From: Rikenellaceae bacterium
GTDB lineage: Bacteria; Bacteroidota; Bacteroidia; Bacteroidales; Rikenellaceae
Assembly: GCA_031286025.1 (NCBI GenBank)
Contig: JAITVB010000250.1
Location: 1-12,452, forward strand
DNA: 12,452 bases
Reading direction: 5' to 3'
The notes under the pieces were generated by a model that saw only the letters and a list, made by a program, of their open reading frames with translations, had not been told where the DNA came from and ran no database searches. The translations under genes and the position numbers were made by a program. This document shows, piece after piece, positions 5,243 to 12,452 of the stretch (the stretch's first letter is position 1; each line of letters opens with the position of its first letter).

Positions 5243-7390
5243 TTACCTGGTGACGATGGTCATTTCGTCGATGAGGCGTTGGGCGCCGGCGAATTTGTCG
5301 ATGATGAACAAAACGTAGCGGATATCGACGCTGATGGTTCGTTGGAGCTCGGGTTCGAAGGCGATGTCGCCGCTCATGGCTTCCCAGTTTCCATCGAAGG
5401 CAAGGCCGATGAGCTCGCCTTTGCCGTTCATGACGGGACTTCCGGAATTACCGCCGGTGATGTCGTTGTTGCTGATGAAATTGACGGGGACGTCTCCGTT
5501 CCAGGCGTAGCGACCGAAATCTTTTTTGGCGTAGAGCTCCTTGAGTTTTTCAGGCACGGTAAATTCCATGGGGTTGGCCGGGTCCTCTTTTTCTATCACG
5601 CCGGTCAGGGTGGTGTAATAGTCATAGCGAACAGCGTCTGCCGGCTTATACGGGAACACCTGGCCGTAGGTGAGACGGATGGTCGAATTGGCGTCGGGGT
5701 AATGGTTGACGTTTTTTTCCATTTCGAGTAATCCTGCAACGTAGAGGCGATGCCCGCGAACATATTTTTCCTGGCAGGCCAGGTAGGGGCCGCGGAGTTC
5801 GGCGGCTTTGGCCGCAATCGAGCCATAACCGATGAAAGCGGGGTCGGCGTCCAGTTCTTCGAGCGTCGGATTGCTCATAAAGGCGTCGAACTTACCTTGG
5901 TCGGCGAAGATCGAGTTGCCGTAGAGACCGTCGACATATTGATTGATGTCGCCCCCGAATTTATCCTGAATTTCGGTCTGGAAGAATGACGGGCGTTGAT
6001 CGGCGGGCACCTTTGCGGCGAAAAGTTCGAGCATCGCCACGGCAATCTTTTTGTCGGTAGGTTGGTTGTAATCCTTGTAGAATCCGGCGGCCGAACTTTT
6101 GATCCGGGCCACCATCGCAGGAGCAATTTGGTTGGAATCCTGCAACTCCTGGCGAATGGCGGCCCCGAGCGAACCGATGTAGAAAATCTCGGTACCGCGT
6201 TGCAGCGCTTCTGTGATGTACTGCATCGCCGCCGCATAGGGCCGACGGCTTGCCACGGCTTCCTCGATCAGCGGCAGCGCTTCGGCGTAAACGGCGCGCG
6301 AGGGATCGGCAGCCACCCAGGCGGTGAATTGGTTTTCCTGCGCTTGTTTTTTATCCTTGACATGGAGGCGGCGCAAGCCGCGGCTCATTCCGATCGAGTT
6401 TTTCCAATAGTTCGACGACGAGGCGTATTTCGAAGCGTACTGGATGCGTACGGCGTCGCTCGCCCTCATGTCGGCCATCATCAGCTCCTGGCGCGCACCG
6501 CGCACTTCGATGCGGATCGGGTTGTCCTGATCGAGCGCCTGGTCGATCTCGTACGAAGTCATATAGCGGTTCGTGCTGCCCGGGAAGCCCAAGATCATCG
6601 TAAAATCGCCCGGCTCGATGCCCTTGATCGAAATATTGAGGTGTCTCAGCGGTTTATAAGGTTTGTTTCCGGCCGAGTAGGGGGTCGGCTTGCCATTGGC
6701 GTCAGCGTAGATGCGGAATACCGAAAAATCGCCGGTGTGGCGCGGCCACATCCAGTTGTCGGTATCGCCCCCGAATTTGCCGATGGCCGAAGGCGGTGCG
6801 CCGACCATCCTGACGTCAGGATACGTTTCGGTCAGGAACAGCAGATATTGGTTGCCGCCAAAGAAATCGCGCACGATCACGTTGTGGCCCGGATGCCGGG
6901 CCCGCCACTCGGCGACGAGTTCGCCCGACGCTTTCATGACGGCGTCGTCGCGGTCGGCTTCCGACATTTGTTCGGTGATGCCCTTGAGCACGGCGGCGGT
7001 CACGTCCTCGATACGGCGCACAAAAACGACCTGCAGTCCCGGCGTAGGGATCTCTTCGGTAAAACTCCGGGCCCAGAAACCATTCTTCAGGTAATCGTGT
7101 TCGACCGAACTGTGCTGTTGGATAGCACCATAGCCGCAATGGTGGTTGGTCAGCACGAGGCCCTGGTCCGACACCACTTCGCCCGTGCAACCGCCGCCGA
7201 AGATCACGATGGCGTCCTTGAGCGAACTGTTGTTGATATCATAAATGTCTTTGGCCGAAAGTTTCAGTCCTCCTTTTGTCATTTGAGGTATGTTCTTCGA
7301 CAGAAAGGGCAGGAGCCACATCCCCTCGTCGGCCGCCGCCCGTCCGAAAACGAGGAAGAGGGCCAACGCCATTACGGAAAGTTTTTTCAT
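5243..7390 (-). CDS. Periplasmic S46-family dipeptidyl-peptidase, DPP7-type
   Basis: S46 enzymes remove dipeptides from the N-terminus of oligopeptides in the periplasm of peptide-using Bacteroidetes. The 715-residue product matches the usual length of about 700-720. It begins with a signal peptide (MKKLSVMALALFLVFGRAAA) and then DEGMWLL, a typical mature start. The chymotrypsin-like triad is visible as TNHHCGYG with His84, PRHTGDFSVFR with Asp221, and TGGNSGSP with Ser649. DNWMWPRH (211-218) is the segment that in known structures holds the substrate N-terminus. Eighteen residues after the catalytic Ser is Gly667 in FDGNWEAMSGD. DPP11 enzymes carry Arg at this place and prefer Asp/Glu at P1, whereas DPP7 enzymes carry Gly and prefer bulky hydrophobic residues, so DPP7-type specificity is inferred. 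A promoter candidate lies upstream at 7444-7477. It converges on cinA and diverges from the B12 leader. Confidence 0.95.
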   Translation of the reverse strand: MKKLSVMALALFLVFGRAAADEGMWLLPFLSKNIPQMTKGGLKLSAKDIYDINNSSLKDAIVIFGGGCTGEVVSDQGLVLTNHHCGYGAIQQHSSVEHDYLKNGFWARSFTEEIPTPGLQVVFVRRIEDVTAAVLKGITEQMSEADRDDAVMKASGELVAEWRARHPGHNVIVRDFFGGNQYLLFLTETYPDVRMVGAPPSAIGKFGGDTDNWMWPRHTGDFSVFRIYADANGKPTPYSAGNKPYKPLRHLNISIKGIEPGDFTMILGFPGSTNRYMTSYEIDQALDQDNPIRIEVRGARQELMMADMRASDAVRIQYASKYASSSNYWKNSIGMSRGLRRLHVKDKKQAQENQFTAWVAADPSRAVYAEALPLIEEAVASRRPYAAAMQYITEALQRGTEIFYIGSLGAAIRQELQDSNQIAPAMVARIKSSAAGFYKDYNQPTDKKIAVAMLELFAAKVPADQRPSFFQTEIQDKFGGDINQYVDGLYGNSIFADQGKFDAFMSNPTLEELDADPAFIGYGSIAAKAAELRGPYLACQEKYVRGHRLYVAGLLEMEKNVNHYPDANSTIRLTYGQVFPYKPADAVRYDYYTTLTGVIEKEDPANPMEFTVPEKLKELYAKKDFGRYAWNGDVPVNFISNNDITGGNSGSPVMNGKGELIGLAFDGNWEAMSGDIAFEPELQRTISVDIRYVLFIIDKFAGAQRLIDEMTIVTR

Positions 7391-7504: not shown

Positions 7505-7512
7505 TACCTTTG
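7505..7512 (+). promoter_or_regulatory. Candidate -7 promoter element for the riboswitch-btuG transcript
   Basis: TACCTTTG at 7505-7512 matches the Bacteroidetes -7 consensus exactly. The predicted start, about 7 bases later (near 7519), falls just before the first base of riboswitch helix P1 at 7527, which supports it. The nearest TTTG upstream (7487-7490) is only 14 bases away, shorter than the usual 19-21, so the -33 element is doubtful. Confidence 0.55.
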
Positions 7513-7526
7513 TTCTGATAACGGCA

Positions 7527-7702
7527 CCCGACGGCATGCACGCCCAAGGGTTTAATAGAGAATCCGGTGTGAATCCGGAACAGTACCCGCTGCTGTGAGT
7601 TCCGAAATGTGTTTCCGGCATCAACGAAGCCACTGTCGCACGCAACATAGGCGATGGGAAGGCGCCCGAAACAGGAACGAGTCAGAAGACCTGCCGACCG
7701 GG
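7527..7702 (+). ncRNA. Cobalamin (adenosylcobalamin-family) riboswitch
   Basis: The aptamer's conserved blocks appear in order. TTTAATAGAGAATCCGG with TGAATCCGG (7551-7577) forms the 5' core and P2, and CCCGCTGCTGTGA corresponds to the family's CCCGCAACTGTA. GCCACTG is at 7629-7635 and GCGATGGGAAGGC at 7651-7663. The 3' B12 box AGTCAGAAGACCTGCCG (7680-7696) has one change from the common form. The ends close as helix P1: CCCG (7527-7530) with CGGG (7699-7702) and CGGCA (7532-7536) with TGCCG (7692-7696). P5 is visible as TCGC/GCGA. Cobalamin binding normally lowers expression of downstream uptake genes, which fits the BtuG-like gene at 8036. Confidence 0.95.
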
Positions 7703-7735
7703 GGACACGGGCTACGCGGAAAACGCCCGCCCCCG
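7699..7735 (+). promoter_or_regulatory. GC-rich hairpin overlapping the P1 3' strand, possible expression-platform switch
   Basis: CGGGGG (7699-7704) pairs with CCCCCG (7730-7735) and CGGGC (7708-7712) with GCCCG (7725-7729), giving 11 bp with a three-base bulge. The first four bases are also the 3' strand of P1, so P1's outer helix and this hairpin exclude each other. It could also be the P13 arm of the family, whose loop can kiss L5; only a weak three-base match was seen. No T-run follows. Confidence 0.5.
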
Positions 7736-8035
7736 ACACCACAACTTTTAGCGTTTTCGGGAGTTAAAGCTAAAAAGGCCGCAGGAATTTTCCTGCCTGT
7801 CCTTGCTCTTTCCCCGTTACATTACCGGTTCTGGTGGCGATAAACTATGTTGAACCAAAACCGTGAAATGCGTATGACACAGTAACCCTTTCAGCATTCG
7901 GGGCTCTCTCCCGCCTCCGGTGGAGAGGAGTTCCTCGGGGGATATTGCCCTCAATCCCATAACTCGACGCCGCAGGAGAGGCGCGATATCCCCTTTTCAC
8001 TTTATCCCGATTTTTCAACCAACGATTTTTCTGAA
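7703..8035 (+). other. Structured leader between riboswitch and btuG
   Basis: This 333-base untranslated stretch has no recognisable gene but several perfect stems. They are TTTTAGC (7746-7752) with GCTAAAA (7769-7775), GCAGGA (7781-7786) with TCCTGC (7791-7796), CTCTCC (7906-7911) with GGAGAG (7922-7927), and the long stem at 7938-7993. A 12-codon frame from ATG 7847 to TAA 7885 is present but nothing shows it is translated. The leader is long for a riboswitch-to-gene distance. Confidence 0.5.
7938..8003 (+). terminator. Candidate attenuator hairpin just upstream of btuG
   Basis: GGGGATATTGC (7938-7948) pairs with GCGATATCCCC (7983-7993), including one G-T pair. CCTC (7949-7952) continues pairing with GAGG (7978-7981) past a single bulged C7982, giving about 15 bp. 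The stem is followed by TTTTCACTTT. It ends 42 bases before the btuG ATG. It could be a conditional terminator controlled by the riboswitch, or simply a stable leader fold. A competing pairing GAGTT (7928-7932) with AACTC (7961-7965) overlaps its loop. Confidence 0.45.
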
Positions 8036-9094
8036 ATGAAACACATAAAATTACTATTCGCCCTTGCGGCAGCTGCATTGTTGTTTACAAACTGCAACAA
8101 CGACGGCGGTTTTGAAGACAGTCCTTATGATCTGACCTCCGGCGGGGTGATCATCCTCGACGAAGGCATGTTGGGAGTTGGCAACGCCGAGATCAGCTAT
8201 TATACGCCCGGCGACGGCCAGGTGATCAACAATGTTTTCGAAAAGGCCAACGATGCCGATTTCGGCGATGCGGCCGCATCGCTCACCTTCTACGGCGGCA
8301 GGATGTACGCTACCCTGAGCGCCTCGGACAAGATCTATGTCATCGATCCGAAAACGTCGCTGATGACGGGCAAACTCACCGATATCAATTCGCCCCGCGA
8401 CATGTATTTCTTCTCGTCGACCAAGGCTTACGTTTCAAGCCTTTATGCCAACGAGATCTACATCGTCAACCCGTCGACGATGACCGTGACCGGCACGGTC
8501 GTCCTGGGCGCAGGCAACAGCGCCGAGACGCTGATCTCGCACGGGGGCTACATCTACACCAATTGTTGGAACAACAATTCGCGCCTGCTGCTGAAGATCG
8601 ATCCGGCCAAAGACCAGGTCGTGGCCACGCTCGAAGTGGGTTACCAACCTAGCAAAATGACGATCGACAAGAACGGCAGCCTGTGGGTCTTCACCGACGG
8701 GGGATGGACCAGCGACTGGACAACCCACCTCGAAACCCCGGCTCTGCACAGGGTAGGCACGATCGATTTCACGGTGGAAAACAGTTGGCCGATGGGCGAT
8801 TGGGACTGGGTGACGGCAGCCGCGATGAATGCCGCCGGCGACAAGTTGTACTATGTCAACACGGATGTGTATGAAATCCCGGTCAGTGGGTCGTATGCCG
8901 ATGCCCGGGCGGTGATCCCGGCCGACGGCCGGTCGTTCTATGGTTTGGGCGTCCTTCCCAACAACGACCTTTATGTGAGCGATCCGCTCGATTACCAACA
9001 GGCGGGCGATGTGTTCCGTTACAATTCGTCGTTCGGCCTCGTCGCTTCATTCAAGGTCGGAGTCGCTCCCGCCAAATTCTACACCTACCGATAA
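8036..9094 (+). CDS. btuG: BtuG-like cobalamin-capturing surface lipoprotein (YncE-type beta-propeller)
   Basis: BtuG proteins of gut Bacteroidetes are surface lipoproteins with a beta-propeller fold. They bind vitamin B12 very tightly and hand it to the TonB-dependent transporter BtuB. The 352-residue product has a lipoprotein signal (MKHIKLLFALAAAALLFTNC) with Cys20 as the lipidation site; Asn at -1 is somewhat unusual. Acidic residues soon after it (CNNDGGFED) fit a surface-export signal. The rest is propeller-like repeats of the form YVIDPKTSLMTGKL (101-114), YIVNPSTMTVTGTVVLG (142-158), LLKIDPAKDQVVATLEVG (186-202), ending DVFRYNSS...VGVAPAKFYTY. The sequence alone shows only a YncE/DUF5074-type lipoprotein. 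The cobalamin riboswitch directly upstream is what makes BtuG the best call. No btuB or btuCDF gene is adjacent. A hairpin terminator follows at 9117. Confidence 0.8.
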   Translation: MKHIKLLFALAAAALLFTNCNNDGGFEDSPYDLTSGGVIILDEGMLGVGNAEISYYTPGDGQVINNVFEKANDADFGDAAASLTFYGGRMYATLSASDKIYVIDPKTSLMTGKLTDINSPRDMYFFSSTKAYVSSLYANEIYIVNPSTMTVTGTVVLGAGNSAETLISHGGYIYTNCWNNNSRLLLKIDPAKDQVVATLEVGYQPSKMTIDKNGSLWVFTDGGWTSDWTTHLETPALHRVGTIDFTVENSWPMGDWDWVTAAAMNAAGDKLYYVNTDVYEIPVSGSYADARAVIPADGRSFYGLGVLPNNDLYVSDPLDYQQAGDVFRYNSSFGLVASFKVGVAPAKFYTYR

Positions 9095-9116
9095 TCGCCG
9101 ATTACGGTTGTCTGCG

Positions 9117-9154
9117 GGGCCTGCGAACTCAAAGTCGCAGGCCCTGTCATTTTA
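9117..9154 (+). terminator. Rho-independent terminator after btuG
   Basis: GGGCCTGCGA (9117-9126) and TCGCAGGCCC (9135-9144) form a perfect 10-bp stem with an eight-base loop, followed by TGTCATTTTA. It lies 23 bases after the btuG stop. On the opposite strand no T-run follows, so it mainly serves btuG, although the convergent dusB ends 32 bases away. Confidence 0.75.
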
Positions 9155-9185: not shown

Positions 9186-10169
9186 TCAAAGGTCGCCCCA
9201 CTGCGCGGCAACGTAGTCGAGTGTGGCATAGAGGTCGGCCGGATCGTCCCGGGTAACAAGCTTCGTTCGGGTTTCCCTGAAGTCGGGCAACCCTTTGAAG
9301 TAAGCGCTCAGGTGGCGGCGCATTTCGAGGACGCCGACTTTGGCACCTTTGAATTCGATCGATTTGTCGAGGTGGAGTTTGGCCAGGGCAACGCGTTCGA
9401 TCACCGAAGGCGCAGGCGGGATGACGCCCGTCTCTAAAAATGTCCGGATCTCATAAAAAATCCAGGGACGGCCGTAAGTGGCGCGACCGATCATGATGCC
9501 GTCGACGCCCCAACGGTCAAAGGCTTCGCGGGCACGTTCGGGCGAGTCGATATCGCCGTTGCCGATGATGGGGATTTTTATGGCCGGATTGTTCCTGACG
9601 GCGCCGATCAGCGTCCAGTCGGCATCGCCGTTATAGAGTTGGCTGCGGGTACGGCCGTGGATGGTGAGGGCGGCGATGCCTACGTCCTGCAGGCGCAGGG
9701 CGACCTCTTCGATATTTCTCGAATCCTGGTCCCAACCCAGGCGGGTTTTGACGGTGACGGGCAATTTGACGGCCTCGACGATGCGGCGGGTCATTTCGAC
9801 CATCGCGGGCACGTCGCGCATCATGCCCGAGCCGGCGCCGCGGTTGGCGATCTTTTTGACCGGACATCCGAAATTGATGTCGATCAGGTCGGGGCCGGCA
9901 ACTTCGGCACGCAGGGCGGCTTCGACCATCGGCCCGATCAGGTGACCGTAGAGTTGGATGCCCACAGGCCGCTCACAATCATAAATGCGCAACTTGGCCA
10001 TCGACTTGGCCGCGTTGCGGATCAGCCCGTCGGAAGAGATGAATTCGGAATAGACGACGTCGGCTCCATACCGCTTGCAGATGTAGCGGAACGAGGGATC
10101 GGTCACGTCTTCCATCGGAGCGAGGAAGAGGGGCCGGTCGGGAAGTTCCATGCCGGCGATTTTTACCAC
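9186..10169 (-). CDS. dusB: tRNA-dihydrouridine synthase (DusB family)
   Basis: Dus enzymes are FMN- and NADPH-dependent and reduce uridines in the tRNA D-loop to dihydrouridine. The 327-residue TIM-barrel protein shows LFLAPMEDVTD at 14-24, DINFGCPVKKI with the catalytic Cys102, VKTRLGW with Lys141, TIHGRTRSQLY with His171, IIGNGDI at 201-207 and MIGRATYGRPW at 226-236. The last two would hold the FMN phosphate. The C-terminal helical domain (about 245-327) is the tRNA-binding part. The start is GTG at 10169-10167, overlapping the end of ung by 7 bases. It is chosen because the family opening, K-I-x-x-x-x-LP before the LFLAPMEDVTD motif, needs these residues; an ATG seven codons in is the alternative. 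It is the last gene of the minus-strand string. Confidence 0.94.
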   Translation of the reverse strand: MVKIAGMELPDRPLFLAPMEDVTDPSFRYICKRYGADVVYSEFISSDGLIRNAAKSMAKLRIYDCERPVGIQLYGHLIGPMVEAALRAEVAGPDLIDINFGCPVKKIANRGAGSGMMRDVPAMVEMTRRIVEAVKLPVTVKTRLGWDQDSRNIEEVALRLQDVGIAALTIHGRTRSQLYNGDADWTLIGAVRNNPAIKIPIIGNGDIDSPERAREAFDRWGVDGIMIGRATYGRPWIFYEIRTFLETGVIPPAPSVIERVALAKLHLDKSIEFKGAKVGVLEMRRHLSAYFKGLPDFRETRTKLVTRDDPADLYATLDYVAAQWGDL

Positions 10170-10838: not shown

Positions 10839-11981
10839 TTATTTCATCTTGTACACTTCCGTGCCGGCCAACAGGAAGCATCCCAATCCATAGTCCTCAA
10901 AGTCAGGCATACTCGTATACCTCACCGGCTGCCCATCCTTCGGTTCCTTGCCTGTCCCCTGCACATAGCCCAAGAATCCGTCCCGATGCAAACAATCCTT
11001 CACCAACGCGCTCCAAGCCCGATAAATCACCGGCCGGTAAGTCTTCGCGTCCAACAATCCGGCGTTCACCCCATAGGCCATCCCGTAAACGAACAATGCC
11101 GTCCCGGTCAACTCCTTACCCCCGAAGTGCGTCGGATCGTGCAGGCTCACGTTCCAGAATCCGTCCGGACGCTGCAACGGCACCAACGCCGAGCACATAT
11201 CCCGCAACATCTTCACATATTCGCTTCGGTGGGCCTCGTCGGTCGGAATGATCTCCAATACACGCACCATTGCCGCCACGACCCAACCGTTGCCGCGCGA
11301 CCAGTAACAGTCCTCCCCGTTGGGTTCCACATAAGGCGGATCGAAATCGGCATCGCGCCACCACAGCCGGTCGACCGGGTTGTATAGGCCCTTGTCGCCG
11401 ATCCGCGTCTTGGTGTAGTTATACATGTCGTACATCCGCTCGAAATAAGCCCGATCGCCCGTGATCGTCCCCAGTCGGGCAAAGACCGGCATCGCCATCT
11501 GGATCGCGTCGATCCATGTCCAGTCGTCGATCCGGGTCGAGTCCATCATGGCGTCGATCGATTTCCTGATGATCTCCATCCGCCGGGGTTGCGGATCGAT
11601 TCGGCAGAGTTCAAGATACACCTGCCCGCAGCATTGGTTGTCGGCATTGCGCGTGGTGTAGCCCCGGTTGAGGTCCCAGTCGAAGCGCTCGCCCCACAGT
11701 GTGGCGTAGTCGAGCAGCCTTTTGTCCTGTGTCAGGTTGTACAGGGCCATTTCGCCCTCGAAATAGACGGCGCGGGTCCAGATGTTGCCCGGATAGACAC
11801 GTGCGCGCGACGGGTAAGGCATCCCTTCGCCCGGATCGGGCCACCGTTTCATGTAATAGTCGTTGGCCACGGTCAGCGCCTTGAGTACGTCGGCCTTTTT
11901 CGGTTTCTGTTGCGCCTGGGCCGGGGATGCCACCCATCCGGTCAGAAGGGCTGCCGCAACGATCAGAATCGTCTTTCTCAT
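10839..11981 (-). CDS. Unsaturated rhamnogalacturonyl hydrolase, GH105 family
   Basis: GH105 enzymes remove the unsaturated galacturonic acid that rhamnogalacturonan lyases leave at the non-reducing end of oligosaccharides. The 380-residue product starts with a signal peptide (MRKTILIVAAALLTGWV, with cleavage likely after AQA at about residue 23), so a periplasmic site is expected. The alpha/alpha-barrel motifs visible are NADNQCCGQ with Asp114, DDWTWIDAIQMAMP with Asp158 (matching the family's catalytic Asp), YWSRGNGWV at 226-234, HFGGKELTGTALFVYGMAYGV, and a C-terminal SMPDFEDYGLGCFLLAGTE. It starts three bases after the stop of the PL11 gene, whose product makes its substrate. The closest alternative is a GH88 unsaturated glucuronyl hydrolase, but the PL11 neighbour favours GH105. 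Confidence 0.88.
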   Translation of the reverse strand: MRKTILIVAAALLTGWVASPAQAQQKPKKADVLKALTVANDYYMKRWPDPGEGMPYPSRARVYPGNIWTRAVYFEGEMALYNLTQDKRLLDYATLWGERFDWDLNRGYTTRNADNQCCGQVYLELCRIDPQPRRMEIIRKSIDAMMDSTRIDDWTWIDAIQMAMPVFARLGTITGDRAYFERMYDMYNYTKTRIGDKGLYNPVDRLWWRDADFDPPYVEPNGEDCYWSRGNGWVVAAMVRVLEIIPTDEAHRSEYVKMLRDMCSALVPLQRPDGFWNVSLHDPTHFGGKELTGTALFVYGMAYGVNAGLLDAKTYRPVIYRAWSALVKDCLHRDGFLGYVQGTGKEPKDGQPVRYTSMPDFEDYGLGCFLLAGTEVYKMK

Positions 11982-11984
11982 ATA

Positions 11985-12452
11985 TTATTTCGTTACGGGT
12001 TGAATCAGGGGCGTGTATTCCGGAGCGTCGGCCGGATCGACCCCTATGTAATAGGATGTCATCGGCGGTTGGTCGTACCCCATTGACCGGTGTGCAATGT
12101 AGTTGCGGTAGAGCGGATCCTGGATCAGGCTCACACGGCGGTCGCGAGCCGAAATCGTGGTCGAATAGACACGCAACTCGCCCGGCAGCATCGTGACGAT
12201 CTCCTCGCGCCAGTCTCCGCTCATGTCGGCGATCATCATGACCGCGCCTTGGAGGCCGTTGGCCAGTACCGATTTGTCCTGATACTTGATCACACTGAAG
12301 GTGCCGCTCTGGCGGTCGCGTTGAGTGGTGGCGCGCAGCACATCGTTACCCCACCAGATCCATTCGCGGCAGCCGGGGATGACAGCGGTCGAACCGATGC
12401 GCCGTCCGTCGGCGGTGAACATGTAGCGGTCGTCTTGGCCTGCTTTGGTCGC
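11985..12452 (-). CDS. Rhamnogalacturonan lyase, PL11 family, C-terminal part (5' end outside the window)
   Basis: The frame is open from the right window edge to TAA at 11985, giving the last 155 residues. They include RYMFTADGRRIG, CREWIWWGNDVLRA, MIADMSGDWREEIVTM, ELRVYSTT, IQDPLYRNYIAHRSMGYDQPP and TSYYIG. The GDWREEI...LRVY...DP-Y-R...YNQPP-type order is characteristic of the C-terminal propeller blades of PL11 rhamnogalacturonan lyases (YesW/YesX type). These cleave the rhamnose-galacturonic acid backbone of pectin by beta-elimination. Endo or exo action cannot be told from this fragment. The GH105 gene starts three bases downstream, consistent with a rhamnogalacturonan I degradation operon whose promoter lies beyond the window. 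Confidence 0.85.
   Translation of the reverse strand, partial: ATKAGQDDRYMFTADGRRIGSTAVIPGCREWIWWGNDVLRATTQRDRQSGTFSVIKYQDKSVLANGLQGAVMMIADMSGDWREEIVTMLPGELRVYSTTISARDRRVSLIQDPLYRNYIAHRSMGYDQPPMTSYYIGVDPADAPEYTPLIQPVTK

Follow-up and report, generated by a model that had tools for sequence, protein, structure and literature searches.

The window analysed here, 12,452 bases long, is the whole of contig C217 of a gut-type Bacteroidota draft genome (G000; 1.72 Mb, 261 contigs, completeness 77.5%) that is the only member of its genus in the genus listing. Its central part carries a single-gene unit on the plus strand between two genes on the minus strand:

5243–7390, minus strand: S46 peptidase gene (PF10459, 826 bits), upstream of and divergent from btuG, outside the unit
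7505–7712, plus strand: cobalamin riboswitch aptamer (RF00174, 85.6 bits, E 2.2e-20, whole model, positions 1–189)
7713–8035, plus strand: leader from the aptamer to the start codon, 323 bases
7937–7994, plus strand: leader hairpin of 58 bases with a large loop, followed by a short T run at 7994–7997
8036–9094, plus strand: btuG, 352 aa, with a signal peptide, Cys20 and a DUF5074 propeller
9114–9147, plus strand: terminator-like hairpin 3' of btuG, 13 pairs, tail CATTTTATGA
9186–10169, minus strand: dusB, tRNA-dihydrouridine synthase gene (PF01207, 276 bits), downstream of and convergent with btuG, outside the unit

The preliminary description had read this region as a stand-alone unit made up of a riboswitch, a long leader, a single btuG-like gene and its own terminator, with the unusual neighbours S46 peptidase and dusB, and each of these parts was recovered. 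With both neighbours on the minus strand, btuG is the only gene that follows the riboswitch. A PADLOC scan gave no match. At the contig end, positions 10839–12452 encode a protein of the Glyco_hydro_88 family together with the end of a rhamnogalacturonan lyase (RGL11_C).

At gathering scores (31.5 for RF00174), the cobalamin riboswitch was the sole Rfam family in the window; the match begins 22 bases before the start previously given for the unit (7527). The leader hairpin at 7937–7994 has a folding energy of −33.1 kcal/mol (z −3.0), with none of 200 shuffled sequences equally stable, and its T run ends 38 bases 5' of the btuG start codon. A simple terminator scan allowing loops of 3–8 bases left it unlisted because its loop is too large. 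Together with its T run (7937–7997), this hairpin is possibly the expression platform of the riboswitch, a candidate transcription attenuator. Read by eye, a stem and then a T run also occur in the leaders of the lone btuG genes of four related genomes (G012, G082, G099 and G108, described below), as would be expected if these riboswitches end transcription. According to PMC12751083, such a mode of action is proposed for Bacteroides thetaiotaomicron. The hairpin behind btuG (9114–9147) reached −26.5 kcal/mol (z −4.8), again with 0 of 200 shuffles equally stable, and no T run follows its stem on the minus strand. The T run of this hairpin is short; where 2.6 terminator-like sites would be expected by chance in the region, the simple scan gave five.

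Sequence comparison bore out the btuG-like nature of the gene. The DUF5074 model (PF16819) matched its product at 73.9 bits (cut-off 27.2), and a phmmer search against solved chains returned nine BtuG-type chains at E values from 4.9e-65 (best, 8bmx_D) to 2.8e-61, while the BtuG1-type chain 8blw_B was matched weakly (E 7e-8). PMC6143338 took a BLASTP value of 1e-10 as its criterion of homology to BtuG, and the phmmer matches of the window protein to solved chains place it within such a limit for B. thetaiotaomicron BtuG. The protein is, by homology, a BtuG. A propeller family lacking the corrinoid-binding face, a match to which was to have spoken against this assignment, did not turn up by sequence.

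Five aromatic residues of the BtuG2 ligand site are named in the main text of PMC10404256: Trp194, Tyr239, Trp272, Tyr316 and Tyr335. In the phmmer alignment, counted by hand, four of them are kept in the window BtuG (Trp178, Trp258, Tyr302 and Tyr320 at BtuG2 Trp194, Trp272, Tyr316 and Tyr335), and the fifth, Tyr239, is replaced by Trp224. This comparison covers the aromatics of the main text; the hydrogen-bonding residues are listed in the supplement of that paper. The earlier statement that the corrinoid preference cannot be read from the sequence is partly right. Since BtuG2 leaves the lower ligand outside (PMC10404256), broad corrinoid binding would be the default expectation for the window BtuG as well. 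The net charge of the mature window BtuG is −18, and −18e is given for BtuG2 in PMC10404256.

Cys20 is likely the lipid anchor of the protein; it is preceded by Asn, off the usual lipobox, and followed by acidic residues. The motif CM.[WYF], which follows the Cys in 136 of 163 parsed BtuGs, is absent from the window BtuG. The 163 remained from 201 rows after removal of duplicates and of unparsed rows, the latter including the lone genes L153, L204 and L218; two rows were mis-parsed, among them the lone L216. Read by eye, all four of these lone BtuGs are without the motif. Loss of CM.[WYF] was considered as a marker of BtuGs encoded apart from btuB and rejected, because several linked BtuGs are without it and the lone L091 and L154 have it.

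The identity of the window BtuG to 13 BtuGs of the same family is 36–41%, and a comparison with database proteins, in which the 8000 candidates with the most shared words were scored, gave 80% and 44% for the two best and 29–37% for the remaining listed ones. The closest listed protein (P0002, 80% identity) is encoded on a 259 kb contig.

As the preliminary description had proposed, the genome was searched for other btuB and btuG genes. One BtuG match was found in G000, and a relative's BtuB gave one match among 17 TonB plug-domain matches. This btuB (658 aa) lies on another contig, C221, as a lone gene with opposite-strand frames on both flanks. Its product matched the solved receptor chains 8bmx_C at E 1.8e-108 and 8p98_A (BtuB3) at 4.7e-106 (359 bits), and BtuB1 at 2.3e-21. 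Chain 8bmx_C comes from an entry, 8BMX, that the data section of PMC10404256 gives as BtuG2-CNCbl, yet the PDB copy has a receptor chain. According to PMC10404256, the EL8 loop of BtuB pushes B12 out of BtuG, and the tip of this loop in BtuB3 is Ser524–Leu531; by our own count on chain 8p98_A, Leu531 and Tyr538 fit the published numbering and residue 524 is not Ser. The EL8 aromatic Tyr538 of BtuB3 corresponds to Trp503 in the C221 protein, in a column that is aromatic in 44 of 46 aligned BtuBs. By sequence, the C221 protein is a TonB-dependent receptor homologous to BtuB2 and BtuB3, with an aromatic EL8.

No cobalamin riboswitch was detected on the whole of contig C221, even at E values up to 10. 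The canonical locus, in which btuB adjoins btuG behind a common riboswitch, is absent from this pair: the two genes lie on different contigs, each with opposite-strand flanks. Were C217 and C221 to adjoin in the genome, the stretch from btuG to btuB would still measure 5 kb or more and include opposite-strand genes, which excludes one btuG–btuB operon.

We assessed how often btuG lies apart from btuB among relatives. In the best 80 of 374 BtuG-encoding stretches of GTDB genomes, with flanks of up to 10 kb of which some ended at contig ends, a BtuB match was present in the flanks of 79 and on the same strand in 78. The two others are L120, with BtuB on the opposite strand, and L091, without BtuB. 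In L091 (a Paramuribaculum MAG), btuG follows matches to a DUF4465 protein and a PKD-domain protein, and the 9.6 kb downstream gave no BtuB match. In the family of the window's genome, BtuG matches at E ≤0.001, some of them weak, occur in 136 of 150 drawn genomes, counting its own. Among 115 listed family matches of at least 158 bits, its own excluded, tblastn-based counts placed BtuB on the same strand within 400 bases of btuG in 86 cases and farther off in the fetched piece in 21; three places were cut by a contig end, and five had no BtuB in pieces that extended 3.5 kb or more to both sides. A same-strand btuB was thus nearby in 107 of 112 informative listed places and absent in five (G012, G046, G082, G099 and G108), three of which, G082, G099 and G108, belong to one genus (g19).

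Rfam searches placed a riboswitch before the lone btuG in G012, G082, G099 and G108, and a pattern scan found none at the btuG of G046. Around the btuBs found in these four genomes and in G046, no riboswitch reached the gathering score in pieces of 9–17 kb. The lone units of G012, G082, G099 and G108 resemble that of the window in their riboswitch, their leader stem with T run and the lack of a nearby btuB, and their genomes resemble G000 in having an unlinked btuB without a riboswitch. They differ from it in their btuG neighbours, and G082 and G099 additionally carry a linked pair, of which the BtuB of G099 is cut by a contig end. In G012, a single contig of 3.15 Mb, the riboswitch–btuG unit lies at 1.92 Mb and the best btuB match at 0.78 Mb, ∼1.1 Mb apart, indicating that the separation is not only a product of draft fragmentation.

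Gene surroundings of lone units in other genomes were noted in passing. L153, L204, L216 and L218, lone riboswitch–btuG units from two other genera, have what we take to be a tsaD-like gene near them, in differing order. The lone btuG of G046 (L154) is presumably followed by a polA-like gene, and the btuB found in G012 (L252) is divergent from a gene that we likewise assume to be polA-like.

Matched trees were calculated for 46 BtuG/BtuB pairs, six with lone genes and 40 linked ones chosen by hand. The window and G012 were sisters in both the BtuG tree (100/99) and the BtuB tree (100/100), and the lone genes of G082, G099 and G108 were sister to the same six linked g19 rows in each (BtuG 100/96, BtuB 99/99). 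These placements fit the view that the lone BtuG–BtuB pairs stayed together. Other points speak against it. Deeper in the trees the placements differed: the window and G012 joined the g19 set in BtuG (11 rows, 98/90), and in BtuB the g19 set joined L036, L208 and L193 (94/97). The placement of G046 differed between the two, its BtuG lying with L184 (92/75) and its BtuB with L207, L227 and L047 (84/85). The window BtuG and the G012 BtuB were flagged as long branches. Mapping of the lone label needed three changes in both trees, at least two of them by starred branches. Larger quick trees again paired the window with G012 for BtuB (83 rows; 100); for BtuG (86 rows), the window paired with P0002, and these two fell into a set of five with P0003, G012 and G032 (98).

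We consider it probable, with good confidence, that the unit encodes half of a split BtuB–BtuG importer of B12, made from two unlinked units of which only the lid is repressed by B12. From homologues we infer B12 binding, repression by B12, surface exposure, a lid–barrel complex and attenuation. At low intracellular B12, the leader would be read through and BtuG made as a surface lipoprotein; at high B12, the riboswitch would bind B12 and btuG expression would be turned off, probably via the hairpin before the start codon. The propeller face of BtuG would capture corrinoids, BtuG would serve as a lid on the C221 BtuB, and the EL8 loop of this receptor would displace B12 into the barrel. Because the C221 btuB has no cobalamin riboswitch, B12 status would set the supply of the lid and not that of the barrel. 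Among the roles offered in the preliminary description, feeding a distant BtuB fits best, given the unlinked BtuB match in G000 and the sister placement of the window and G012 in both trees.

A role purely as a store or scavenger, offered there as well, is less likely. A BtuG acting without a BtuB partner, as a surface-bound or shed trap or store of B12, would account for a btuG unit that stands alone, and PMC6143338 reports that deletion of btuB2 in B. thetaiotaomicron moves BtuG2 mostly to the supernatant, so that an unpartnered BtuG can be released. Yet the BtuB match encoded in G000 keeps the EL8 aromatic, and this BtuB pairs with that of G012 just as the window BtuG pairs with the BtuG of G012; we regard a partnerless BtuG as unlikely.

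Less probable still is that the separation of the genes is an artefact of the draft, through mis-binning of the window or of the btuB contig or through a linked btuB–btuG operon that is missing from the assembly. The completeness of 77.5% and the 261 contigs would leave room for such an operon, but within its contig btuG is flanked to the left and right by opposite-strand genes, as is btuB on C221, and the same separation recurs in the one-contig genome G012 and in G082, G099 and G108, which share a genus. It is very improbable that the window BtuG handles some other corrinoid or a different kind of ligand and is no partner of the C221 receptor: its identities of 36–41% to family BtuGs and of 80%, 44% and 29–37% to the listed database proteins, and the exchange at BtuG2 Tyr239, would allow for it, but four of the five named pocket aromatics are conserved, the riboswitch links btuG to corrinoid status, and both trees pair the window with G012.

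A split importer of this kind is most likely a known machine with unusual wiring, the lid gene being under a riboswitch and the pore gene elsewhere without one. It resembles BtuG2/BtuG3 with BtuB2/BtuB3 of B. thetaiotaomicron (PMC6143338, PMC10404256) in its homologous lid and barrel and in the riboswitch before btuG, and BtuG2/BtuB3 in four of the five named pocket aromatics, the net charge and the EL8 aromatic. It differs in that each btuG of B. thetaiotaomicron adjoins a btuB, as given in PMC6143338, whereas here the genes are lone and unlinked and the riboswitch stands at btuG only. In the same paper, 106 of 112 btuG homologues from 313 gut strains were in btuB operons. For operon 1 of B. 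thetaiotaomicron, PMC12751083 reports an additional riboswitch upstream of btuB1; a barrel gene may thus carry its own control element, but the riboswitches there lie inside one operon and none is present at the btuB described here. In the open literature searched, with subscription papers mostly outside its scope, no description of a lone riboswitch–btuG unit with an unlinked btuB was found.

Existing descriptions have BtuB and BtuG form a stable complex, barrel and lid, that is encoded at a single locus. With separate genes under different control, one can test if the lid is limiting, if excess lid is released, and if a lid and a barrel encoded apart remain matched partners. As BtuG2 of B. 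thetaiotaomicron is mostly lost from the membrane without BtuB (PMC6143338), we also entertain, as a speculation with the odds clearly against it, that a lid which alone responds to B12 would come to exceed a steady supply of BtuB in starvation, with the surplus shed as a B12 trap that later docks onto BtuB. Equally speculative is the notion that such shed BtuG might be a protein counterpart of a siderophore.

The G000 gene content points to corrinoid demand in this organism, and predicted corrinoid users are present. In the family scan of the genome, MutB was above its cut-off; MutA and a piece of MetH at a contig end fell short of theirs. A FecCD permease had BtuC as its best NCBIfam match (179 bits, cut-off 334). 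The draft contains two cobalamin riboswitches, one before btuG and one before nrdD. The latter riboswitch lies at L072 9097–9290 (G000:C39, minus strand). The nrdD gene, for an anaerobic ribonucleotide reductase, is above its cut-off, and next comes an nrdG-like gene that narrowly misses its own; a cobalamin riboswitch before nrdD has been reported in a Chlorobium (PMC8620254). An adenosylcobalamin-dependent class II ribonucleotide reductase gene (L262, G000:C251:8445–10040, minus strand) has an in-frame stop and is either a pseudogene or an assembly error. At L258 (3763–5553, G000:C167), a gene for an MtbC/MtgC-type corrinoid protein adjoins one for an MtaA/CmuA-type methyltransferase, both below curated cut-offs; the pair is perhaps a further corrinoid user.
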